From contig JAAYKA010000050.1 of NCBI GenBank assembly GCA_012522635.1, positions 1-35,307 on the forward strand: a DNA stretch of 35,307 nt, in the 5' to 3' direction. This document shows, one piece after another, positions 5,601-33,846 of the stretch. The notes under the pieces were generated by a model that was not told the DNA's origin, made no database searches, and worked only from the letters and a program-made list of their open reading frames with translations. The stretch comes from Candidatus Cloacimonadota bacterium (GTDB lineage: Bacteria; Cloacimonadota; Cloacimonadia; Cloacimonadales; Cloacimonadaceae). Numbering within the stretch: the first letter of the stretch is position 1; each line of letters starts with the position of its first letter. The position numbers and the translations under genes were made by a program.

Positions 5601-5778
5601 TTCCTCTCAGGTGTGGCGTCCTCTGGCTGTGACTTTTGCCTTTGGGCTCAGCTTTGCCACTCTCATCACATTGTTCGTGATACCAGTTCTTTACAGCGCA
5701 GTGGATTCCTTTTTCGGCCTCCTGAAAATGACTCGCTTCAAGGAACACACAAAGTTCGAAGATGCCGGTGTGGAATAA
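2623..5778 (+). CDS. RND-family efflux permease (AcrB/HAE1-like)
   Basis: This is a 1051-aa inner-membrane RND permease driven by ion motive force. The AcrB architecture is visible: a first membrane helix at the N-terminus (IRYSVLINMLVIAIVIMGVISMV), a large periplasmic porter domain, a helix block around residues 335-480, a second porter domain, and a terminal helix block around 865-1035. TM4 carries GMVVDNSIVVLEN, so the first AcrB relay Asp is kept (D397) but the second is Asn (N398). TM10 carries VVNNAILLIDF, with Asn939 where AcrB has Lys940. These changes occur in other divergent HAE-type pumps. AGGA lies 7 bases before the ATG. It is the third gene of the operon. Substrates are unknown; drugs, bile-like compounds or lipids are all possible. 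Confidence 0.94.
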   Translation: MKIADLSIRYSVLINMLVIAIVIMGVISMVRMPREEFPAVEFGRVIVVVVYPGASPQEMEELVTNKVETGLNNLPKLDSIESITEESSSTVIVSFETGVDSEEAYDLVTREMSKINDLPSEAMDPVIIRLSMRELNPISQLVVSGDFTPLALRELANELRDGILKLPDISKAELIGARDHQIWVDVDQARIDAYGLSLSDVSAVLQGRNLNIPGGTAKYGNTEFLVRALGQFNSMDEIGRMILTSDASGRSIVVNDIATVRDTLSKSQTIAKLNGQEGISVFLYKKGDSNIIKVMERVREYITEFEASHPGAKISVRNDGSIDVKNGIGALSNSALMGILLVFGALLLFLGWRNAAFASTGIPLSLLITFIIVPLFGVTLNNFTIFALIIVVGMVVDNSIVVLENIQRHKEMGLDHRASIVSGVDQIISPVFASTLTTVAAFMPMLLTGGIMGQFLSVFPIVVSVALLASWFQSMVILPTNVYQFGRGISGGEDRTTRMIRPINRFYRKVITRALKHRGWVLGGTLLLLFISILVLFSGAIRFEFFPGSLSQTISLELYTPLGTSLEETNRVVSLVEQKILSLKHKDDIEFVVSNVGSLSSQGIRENKTSNAGLRIDLVPLKKMKSTHEEIKNEIREYLDTLPGLYNYKFSTSQAGPPLGKDVDIRIKGKDLERLVYISDVVKSSLKKIPGVKDIDDSNDPGKMEARIVMNQERLSMYGLSVAQVASAIRLASAGSEVTRFRGNGVDEIPIVVKLDDRYTQDFETLKDLKVRSRTGMLVPIRELADFDIGSSISRITHDNGDRVLSVTASVGEYYEGKTRKKRSTQEVVNILSGSKLRSTQGTLANFEQRFPGYTMEFGGVQKHQNESYSSLGIGFLIALLAIFTILASQFRSYVQPLIVMATIPLAFIGVVIGLLITRLSFSLNTMLSLVALAGVVVNNAILLIDFINQEREQGADRWHAIINSGSARLRPIILTTATTVAGMLPLVFSTDPSSQVWRPLAVTFAFGLSFATLITLFVIPVLYSAVDSFFGLLKMTRFKEHTKFEDAGVE

Positions 5779-5828
5779 TTCCTGGATGTCTTTTTGATTT
5801 TCCAAACATAGAGTTACCTCGCATCAAT

Positions 5829-6142
5829 ATATGAACGAGCCTCTTGATTTCAGGCGCCCAGTGCCCTAAACCTTTGTATCGCCAATGTTTGGCTTTTGAA
5901 ACATAAGGGAGACATAAGGCGGCAAGCAGGAAGCACCAGGTTTCCCCAACATAGACGGCCTTCTAAAGCCTGCCCTCAAGCCTGTTCCGCTCTTGCTTCT
6001 GGCTCAGCAGTAACTGCATTTCATCCCCTGAGCATCCCATTTTTTTGGCGGGATGATAATGAGGCATGAATGTGGCACACATGGGCCAGGGTCAAGGGCG
6101 GATTAAGGTTGCATCCTACTTCACGATACAGGTGAACATATC
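5829..6142 (+). repeat. Dispersed intergenic element, copy A (314 bp)
   Basis: This matches the reverse complement of 16715-17028 over its full length without gaps. I count about 34 mismatches, or about 89% identity. Similarity stops abruptly at both ends. Both ends carry short related termini (ATATG at the left end, GATATG on the opposite strand at the right end). It lies between the convergent efflux permease and DUF4249 genes and covers the last 27 bases of the DUF4249 reading frame, including its stop. Inside, ACATAAGG occurs twice at 11-bp spacing (5901-5908 and 5912-5919). No transposase is encoded. It fills nearly all of the 337-base gap between the genes; the remaining 5779-5828 shows nothing. 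Confidence 0.9.
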
Positions 6143-7042
6143 TATGGAACTGGCGGAACCGAAATAGCCCAGGGCGTTGTTCACACCGCCGTGTAAATAG
6201 CCTTCCTCCATGAAGTTATAGTTGTAATAATTTTCGTCCACGATTCTGAGACGGAGACGATAGCGGCCATAGAAAAAGAAGGCAACGGAATAGTTGTTTA
6301 AAACAATGTAGTTGTCGGGCAGGTCGGGCAACGGGGCGGAGTTGAATCGATACATCATGTTGATGCGGCGTGGGGGGCGTCCGGCATTGTAGGCAGCTTC
6401 AATTTCGGCTGAGGGTTGCGTATCTTCCAAAAGTGGTGAGGTATATTCCAGCTCGGTGCTAAAATCTTCCAAACAGTATGTTTCCACCGCCATATACATG
6501 GTGCCGGAATGGATGCCGGTATTGACAATGGCGGGAAAATCGCTGTCGATGCGGCTTAATTGAATCTCGTTTTGGGTGTTGGCGTCCAAGGACCAGCCGA
6601 TTCCGGGCGGATTTGTGTTCCAGGGATTTGGTTCGGCATGGATGCAGGGTGGGACTGTGGTTTCTGCGCTGATGAGTTTATCGAAGCCGGGGATTCTGAC
6701 TTCGATGCGATAGCGGTGTTCAGGCTGGATGATGTTTTCCGCCGTGTCGATATATTTGAATTTAAAATCGTGAAGAGCGGGGCTGAGTTCAAATTCGAGC
6801 CCGGTATCCAAGTCCCGGACAGTGATTTCGGCGTCCCAAACGAAAAGCTCCAAAGGATTAAAGTTTTCGATGGTGGAACTGCGGGTCACATAGACCGGGT
6901 ATTCCAGACCAATGGGTTTGCCTGCCACGAGCAAGCCGGCAAGAGTGTGGACTTCGCCTTCAAAGCGCGGTCCGCTGGTATTTTGGCAGGCCGTGAGGGC
7001 AAAAAGCAACAGGAAAAGCGCGAAGGAAAGCTTTTTCACCAT
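6116..7042 (-). CDS. DUF4249-like lipoprotein, partner of the TonB receptor
   Basis: A 308-aa lipoprotein with signal peptide and lipobox LTAC (Cys19), so it is membrane-anchored on the periplasmic side or at the surface. The beta-rich body with LVAGKPIGLEYPVYVTRS near the N-terminus, the pattern EITVRDLDTG around residue 76 and the closing YFGSASSIDMF resemble DUF4249 proteins, which commonly sit beside TonB-dependent receptors with a CarboxypepD_reg-like domain. The assignment comes from pattern and context. Its ATG overlaps the stop of the receptor gene by 7 bases, so the two are coupled. The last codons and the TAG stop lie inside intergenic element copy A. The inverted copy has CAG at the matching codon, so one C-to-T change makes this stop. 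Function is unknown; a role in nutrient uptake is likely. Confidence 0.75.
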   Translation of the reverse strand: MVKKLSFALFLLLFALTACQNTSGPRFEGEVHTLAGLLVAGKPIGLEYPVYVTRSSTIENFNPLELFVWDAEITVRDLDTGLEFELSPALHDFKFKYIDTAENIIQPEHRYRIEVRIPGFDKLISAETTVPPCIHAEPNPWNTNPPGIGWSLDANTQNEIQLSRIDSDFPAIVNTGIHSGTMYMAVETYCLEDFSTELEYTSPLLEDTQPSAEIEAAYNAGRPPRRINMMYRFNSAPLPDLPDNYIVLNNYSVAFFFYGRYRLRLRIVDENYYNYNFMEEGYLHGGVNNALGYFGSASSIDMFTCIVK

Positions 7043-16383: not shown

Positions 16384-16714
16384 TGAGACTCCCTTTGATA
16401 TTTTTGGATTTTTCACGGATAATGCTTTTTTGACAGGCACAGAAATGTTCCCGCCGGGATGCAAGCAAAACCCGCTCAATCTGCGCCAAACTCCACCAAA
16501 GGCAGATTTTGTCAAATGAAAAGTAGTTTTCATGGCTGCTAACAGACTTTTATCCGCGTTTTGACGTCTCGTAAACTGGAAAAATTACGGGGATGCAGAT
16601 TGGTAACGCCCTCAAATAAGGGAACTTAACAGCTAAATCTGGCTGGGGGATTTCCCCGATTCCATTTCGGGAACTGGATTATTTATCTTTCCGCTCTTTT
16701 ATCATTCAACCCTT
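16384..16714 (-). other. Non-coding leader/upstream region of the ABC exporter operon
   Basis: No supported gene lies between the ABC start and intergenic element copy B. On the minus strand a TTGACA followed by AAAT lies at 16510-16515, 127 bases before the start, without a clear -10 hexamer. A small G-rich/C-rich dyad lies near 16645-16656. The promoter of the exporter operon must lie here or in the repeat, but I cannot place it with confidence. Confidence 0.4.
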
Positions 16715-17028
16715 GATATGTTCACCCATATCGTGAAACAGGATGCACCCTTAATCCGCCCTTGGCTTTGGCTCATTTGTGCCTCGTTCATGCCTCATTA
16801 TCAACTCGCCAAAAAGATGGGATGCTCAGGGGATGAAATGCGGTTACTGTTGAGCCAGAAGCAAGAGCGGAGCAGGTTTGGGGGCAGGCTTTAGAAGTCC
16901 GTCTATATTGGGAAAACCTGGTGCTTCCTTCTTGCCGCCTTATGTCTCCCTTATGTTTCAAAGGCTAATCATTGGCGATACAAAGTGTTAGGGCACTGCG
17001 CGCCTAAAAACAACAGGCTCGCTCATAT
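16715..17028 (-). repeat. Dispersed intergenic element, copy B (314 bp, inverted)
   Basis: This is an inverted full-length copy of 5829-6142, about 89% identical and gap-free by hand alignment, with sharp loss of similarity at both ends. The tandem motif CCTTATGT (the reverse complement of ACATAAGG) lies at 16938-16945 and 16949-16956, again 11 bp apart. The ends read GATATG on both strands, a possible 6-bp terminal inverted repeat. I see no target-site duplication. It lies between the start of the ABC operon and the terminator of the GlmL operon. A 58-codon frame (16718-16894, plus) runs through it but is not kept in copy A. Confidence 0.9.
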
Positions 17029-17049
17029 CAGAAATTGTCATGAGTAAAG

Positions 17050-33706: not shown

Positions 33707-33730
33707 GCGGAACTTGCGATATTCAGACTT

Positions 33731-33846
33731 TATCTGAACGAGTTTGCTGAACAAACATCAGCAAAAGCCCTAACTCTTTGTGTGGCTTATAATTGTCTTT
33801 ACAAACATAAGGGACACATAAGGCGGCAAGGCAGGAAGAACCAAAT
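33731..33846 (+). repeat. Dispersed intergenic element, copy C (truncated, diverged)
   Basis: This matches the left third of copy A: CTGAACGAG at the start, AGCCCTAACTCTTTGT, then AAACATAAGGGACACATAAG and on through CGGCAAGGCAGGAAG. It keeps the two ACATAAGG motifs at 11-bp spacing (33805-33812 and 33816-33823). The remaining two thirds of the element are missing. It sits between the ferritin promoter and the 3' end of fpg, in the same orientation as copy A. Confidence 0.8.

Follow-up and report, generated by a model that had tools for sequence, protein, structure and literature searches.

The window analysed here is a whole contig (C50; 35,307 bp) of genome G000, an assembly of 1.84 Mb in 152 contigs. 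This and the other genomes we compared are metagenome-assembled, and gene positions come from a home-made codon-usage gene caller. The window carries three copies of one element between its genes, with the following features:

5826..5936, plus strand: element copy 1 as matched by the model; its neighbors are convergent genes, an RND transporter gene on the plus strand that ends at 5778 and a minus-strand gene that ends at 6116
5833..5843, plus strand: left block A of copy 1, GAACGAGCCTC, preceded by AT-rich AATATAT (5827-5832)
5871..5877, plus strand: left outer inverted unit of copy 1, CCTTTGT
5882..5890, plus strand: left inner inverted unit of copy 1, CCAATGTTT, 11 bp from the outer unit
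5901..5908, plus strand: right unit 1 of copy 1, ACATAAGG
5912..5919, plus strand: right unit 2 of copy 1, ACATAAGG, 11 bp after unit 1
5920..5933, plus strand: right end of copy 1, CGGCAAGCAGGAAG, resembling the AAGCARGGAGGA end of a palindrome in genome G013
16921..17030, minus strand: element copy 2, between tandem minus-strand genes
17014..17024, minus strand: block A of copy 2, GAGCGAGCCTG
16949..16956, minus strand: unit 1 of copy 2
16938..16945, minus strand: unit 2 of copy 2
33730..33842, plus strand: element copy 3, between a minus-strand ferritin-like gene and minus-strand fpg (mutM)
33736..33746, plus strand: block A of copy 3, GAACGAGTTTG
33805..33812, plus strand: unit 1 of copy 3
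33816..33823, plus strand: unit 2 of copy 3

A first-pass annotation had noted a motif that occurs twice, 11 bp apart, in each of the three window copies and is followed by CGGCAAG. Both observations are exact in all three (motif starts 5901/5912 on the plus strand, 16949/16938 on the minus strand and 33805/33816 on the plus strand), so that ACATAAGG-N3-ACATAAGG spans 5901-5919 (+), 16938-16956 (-) and 33805-33823 (+). With up to three mismatches allowed, 0.18 matches to this pattern were expected per shuffle of the window, and four matches were reached in none of 100 shuffles; ACATAAGG alone occurs seven times in the window versus 0.53 expected. The genome-wide scan that the annotation had proposed returned 41 exact matches in 1.84 Mb, and a control with the pattern read backwards returned none. 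At two places (C36:35198 and C129:5563) three ACATAAGG units stand in a row, and the number of units therefore varies.

The pair is the right half of an intergenic, non-coding element of ∼110 bp with about 77 copies in the genome. From left to right, the element consists of an AT-rich stretch, block A (GAACGAGTCTGTTGAAAA), ∼15 variable bases, CCCTAAACCTATGTGTCGCTTATGTTTGCTTTTGAA and then ACATAAGGGAG ACATAAGG CGGCAAGCAAGAA; its left half holds inverted copies of the right-half units, also spaced by 11 bp. Neither the inverted array of which the pair forms one half, nor the size of the family, nor the drift of unit 2 (33 of 76 copies) had been seen in the annotation. A sequence-only profile (R1) matched the genome 78 times, and the counts below rest on 77 of these places. 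At its threshold one congener (G001) had four matches and 11 others had none, a result with which a search of 50 genomes of the family agrees. Nine copies (L001, L015, L021, L024, L032, L036, L037, L106 and L108) keep the array and have no block A, and the element seems modular. We rejected a hammerhead-like core, to which CTGATGA in block A had pointed: the sequence is CTGTTGA or CTGCTGA in the majority of copies, incompatible with such a core, and an Rfam search over the window gave no match. Copies 1 and 2 have 319 bp in common at 89% identity in inverted orientation (5829-6147 and 16710-17028), that is, ∼200 bp downstream beyond the element; the other copies compared have ∼130 bp or less in common.

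The 41 exact copies were chosen by the motif itself, and conservation among them alone would mislead; a set of 76 genomic copies corrects for this. Across that set, 67 copies have an exact unit 1 and 43 an exact unit 2 (39 have both), with unit 2 most often replaced by ACTAAAGG (12 copies), ACTAAGGG (nine) or ACCAAGGG (five), among other variants. The 11-bp register is constant in every copy. Positions A6, A7, G8, A13, G19 and G20 are invariant and A17 and G23 are conserved at 99%, versus 53%–61% at the intervening positions 10, 12, 15 and 16, an unevenness that uniform decay would not give. The earlier proposal that motif and phase are conserved while neighboring bases drift therefore stands for the three window copies, for unit 1 and for the register, and fails in part for unit 2: had further copies shown spacing and motif drifting like the rest, the proposal would have fallen, and only unit 2 partly does so. 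The self-similarity of the weight matrix peaks at a lag of 11 in both halves (0.267 on the right, where the next best lag scores 0.118, and 0.131 on the left), inverted symmetry of the matrix with itself appears at two shifts that differ by 11 bp, and the element model, run against its own reverse strand, finds a match across the dyad (positions 49-95). These properties describe two facing rows of phased units, of which the right row is far better kept. A repeat period of one helical turn is thus kept under sequence change, as expected of a phased protein-binding array.

A permissive search of the 12 congeners revealed the same design built from different units. In G011, G005 and G009 it takes the form AGCTTATGTCC-loop-(GGACATAAGCT)n, n being 2–8, at about 15–25 places per genome; in G011 there are up to eight right units versus about two left units. 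G011 and G005 have at least seven orthologous array sites in common; the flanking DNA there is 80%–93% identical, and the unit number differs at nearly every site, although these counts need care because arrays containing a variant unit were split. The form in G007 is CTTAGGTCATC-CTTATAAATTA-TAAGGTTGACC-TAAG, and a CTTAATCAAGC class is common to several genera and occurs three times in G000 as well. A generic pattern, CTTA-N7-CTTA-N6..20-TAAG-N7-TAAG, which presupposes a CTTA core and would miss other cores, was found in 18 of 50 genomes of the family versus none of 57 from the order's other families, with at most one match per genome for the reversed control.

Beyond the family, two Bacteroidales matches to the motif have none of the other parts of the element around them and appear to be coincidental. 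No array of the ACATAAGG unit was found in viral contigs; one viral contig (IMGVR_UViG_3300033143_006887; L309, 359-385) has a tandem CTTAATC-type array of CTTAATCNNNN units with an 11-bp period and AAGCAAGG nearby. Intergenic DNA of the congeners is too divergent for empty and filled sites to be paired, with one partial exception between G000 (L065, C121:805) and G001 (L114, C31:44874). These apparently orthologous loci have the right half and downstream DNA in common, and block A is missing in G001. At another place, G001 does have a nearly identical block A stretch (L154, C18:526), which would fit a splitting or rearrangement of the element.

The annotation had suggested relating the motif to gene ends. 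Eight large G000 contigs, 370 kb in total, hold 21 elements, all intergenic; they take up eight of the 15 regions between convergent genes, 11 of the 66 between tandem genes and two of the 21 between divergent genes. The enrichment in convergent regions is significant (Fisher P = 0.002). Orientation relative to neighboring genes is mixed and shows no bias, and we therefore rejected a cis-regulator with fixed gene orientation or distance. The arrays of G011, G005 and G009, on the other hand, lie between divergent gene pairs in 18 of about 30 cases, and no single regulatory role fits both contexts. One such role would be a regulon operator. OmpR/PhoB-type factors bind 11-bp direct repeats, and the ∼7-bp site in 11-bp direct phasing and the mostly upstream position of the G011-group arrays are what an operator would predict. 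Yet the genes flanking those arrays are assorted housekeeping genes with no common theme, and the G000 copies are not promoter-facing. Together with the spacing described below, which an operator would not lead one to expect, this makes it the least probable of the readings we weighed.

Genome G013 holds a 94-bp palindromic form of the element, TCCTCCYTGCTTSATHAC-(CTTAGTATAAC)2-CTTAC-NNNN-GTAAG-(GTTATACTAAG)2-GTDATSAAGCARGGAGGA. In the 27 copies that we read, arm positions 2-42 from the center are complementary in 1107 of 1107 cells. Seven arm positions vary, giving 12 arm haplotypes, with every variant mirrored in the opposite arm, and the symmetry ends sharply at position 47. The right end, AAGCARGGAGGA, resembles that of the G000 element, GGCAAGCAAGAAGG; the G013 ends TCCTCCTTGCTT...AAGCAAGGAGGA may be terminal inverted repeats. 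In G000 the right end alone is kept, and block A stands on the left. Judged by eye, no target-site duplication is apparent beside the 27 copies.

The annotation had named RNA pairing as an alternative to protein binding, and an RNA-level hairpin could act as an mRNA 3'-end stabilizer, terminator or processing site. The perfect G013 palindromes predict stems of ∼45 bp, individual G000 cores fold more stably than their shuffled versions (mean z = -1.85), and a role at 3' ends would agree with the enrichment between convergent genes. Against this, RNAalifold found no consensus structure among the G000 copies, their left-arm changes are mostly uncompensated, and no T-run terminator was found at the motif. 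A covarying outer stem in the flanks of the G000 copies, suggested by a few pairs seen by eye, was rejected, as left and right flanks gained nothing in pairing from belonging to the same copy (permutation P = 0.96). The unequal numbers of left and right units in G011 and the mostly divergent position of its sites also disagree with a hairpin in the transcript. Finally, RNA would tolerate G-U pairs, yet there are none among the 1107 G013 cells. We consider a function at the RNA level improbable; the mirrored arms suggest instead either copying from one arm to the other, by way of a hairpin intermediate or of repair templated by a hairpin, or selection for strict symmetry of the DNA.

The elements keep a distance from one another. 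The closest two of the 77 G000 copies are 7,710 bp apart, whereas random placement would give ∼14.5 gaps below 7.5 kb. When simulated copies were allowed only between genes, each contig keeping its own number, the deficit persisted (P = 0.0002–0.007 in five of six definitions, and none of 5000 simulations in the sixth). This effect was noticed post hoc in the same data, and G013 served as an independent check, which replicates it: 28 loci on the first 60 contigs, whose lengths were partly interpolated, have gaps of 8.8–13.6 kb, with 4.6 shorter gaps expected and none seen (P = 0.004). A minimum spacing could reflect a chromosome-organizing role or the exclusion of new insertions near old ones. 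Contig ends show a slight excess of copies, with ∼20 of the 77 within 1 kb of an end versus 12.7 expected, and the CTTAATCAAGC-class copies of G064 lie 13–49 bp from contig ends; this may mark longer repeats or strain rearrangements.

The copies within a genome are homogeneous, which points to amplification, as in REP or MITE elements. We searched for a Y1 (RAYT-type) transposase domain (PF01797) and found no match in the element-rich genomes G000, G011, G009 and G064; it is present in G013 and other genomes. Its absence from these four led us to reject RAYT/Y1 as a universal mobilizer. One G013 Y1 gene has an element ∼1.2 kb downstream, which chance can explain, and there was none at the other Y1 loci that we read. 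In G013 (L280, C77, 2519-2830), a second tandem palindromic repeat, unlike the present element, lies close to a gene for a Y1 transposase and gives rise to a spurious ORF with an IPAQAG-type repeat. No G000 copies flank a transposase, and we found no binding protein or mobilizing enzyme for the element.

The elements might nonetheless be purely selfish mobile palindromes, moving through a hairpin intermediate by an enzyme supplied in trans, with the phased units as its recognition site only and no gain to the host. In favor of this are the near-identical, lineage-specific copies of G013, which end abruptly and have fully mirrored arms, the random orientation that the G000 copies show relative to genes, the patchy presence in the family (18 of 50 genomes) and the related CTTAATC array in a viral contig. 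Selfish spread sits less easily with the retention of orthologous G011/G005 sites, with the motif-specific conservation that old G000 copies keep, with the minimum spacing of 7.7 kb and with the transposase results above. It is the strongest competitor, though we judge it clearly less likely than the phased array that we favor.

Known dispersed repeats share parts of this description. REPs are palindromes of 20–40 bp that bear an unpaired GTAG- or CGTC-type tag at one end; they often stand close together as inverted pairs, and RAYTs mobilize part of them (PMC3733652). REPINs are REP doublets that form hairpins (PMC3116915). Our elements resemble them in being dispersed, intergenic, palindromic, high in copy number and lineage-specific in sequence, and G000 favors convergent and tandem gene ends as REPs do. 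They differ in length (94–118 bp, with 11-bp phased internal units), in lacking a GTAG or CGTC tag in the copies read (the G013 ends are paired TCCTCC/GGAGGA), in the lack of a Y1 transposase match in G000, and in lying at least 7.7 kb apart where REPs often cluster in pairs.

MITEs, ERIC, BOX and RUP are intergenic non-coding repeats of ∼100 bp, sometimes with inverted-repeat ends, and BOX has an internal unit that varies in number. The present elements match them in size, non-coding sequence and location, and match BOX in the variable unit number; they stand apart in an internal unit of one helical turn and in mirrored changes of the G013 arms, and in that we found no transposase partner and saw by eye no target duplication in G013. 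Short head-to-tail and inverted sites at helical spacing recall the Pho box, with its 11-bp direct repeats, and the subterminal repeats of Ac/Ds and En/Spm, all phased sites for transcription factors or transposases, but our elements are tied to neither one regulon nor a transposon body, and their protein is putative. Tens of spread-out, widely spaced copies are also typical of matS and gyrase-binding BIMEs, which are chromosome-organizing sites; here, unlike there, the sequence turns over between species and a chromosomal role is a proposal. A literature search for papers combining Cloacimonas and palindromic found none.

Taken together, we read the element as a dispersed intergenic REP/MITE-like repeat of one bacterial family whose core is a phased array for a putative DNA-binding protein, an interpretation to which we give about an even chance. 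It draws on the period, the inversion, the tolerance of changes in unit sequence and number but not in phase, and the motif-specific conservation. Against it count the failure to find a binding protein or mobilizing enzyme, the gene contexts that vary with the species and the target-site duplications looked for by eye in G013 and not seen. The annotation's protein-binding site is in this respect the best fit, with the 11-bp repeat in both halves, their inversion, a phase kept across species and conserved motif positions behind it; naming a nucleoid or transposition protein is a proposal. The functional core would be half-sites (core CTTA/TAAG; here ACATAAGG), one per helical turn of 11 bp, in two rows facing each other across a dyad. 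A candidate protein would bind head-to-tail along one DNA face of each row and might join the two rows as a dimer. We infer that the elements spread as REP/MITE-like non-autonomous repeats and that each lineage amplified and homogenized its own unit, probably by unit gain and loss and by the copying of one palindrome arm onto the other.

A more specific and more speculative extension, which we hold only tentatively and rate slightly below selfish spread, is that the elements are chromosome-organizing sites. A fast-evolving protein of the family would dock on phased CTTA/TAAG arrays at least about 8 kb apart, with protein and lineage-specific 11-bp unit co-evolving while site positions are kept. 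If the phased-array interpretation holds, the family would possess an intergenic repeat with a unit of exactly one helical turn, whose sequence is replaced between species while its architecture is kept, whose palindrome arms change in perfect step and whose copies stay clear of one another by about 8 kb. Such a system would make it possible to test directly whether palindromic repeats of this dispersed kind are selfish or serve as chromosome-domain or DNA-binding sites, and its natural series of unit variants would offer a route to the cognate protein by co-variation.
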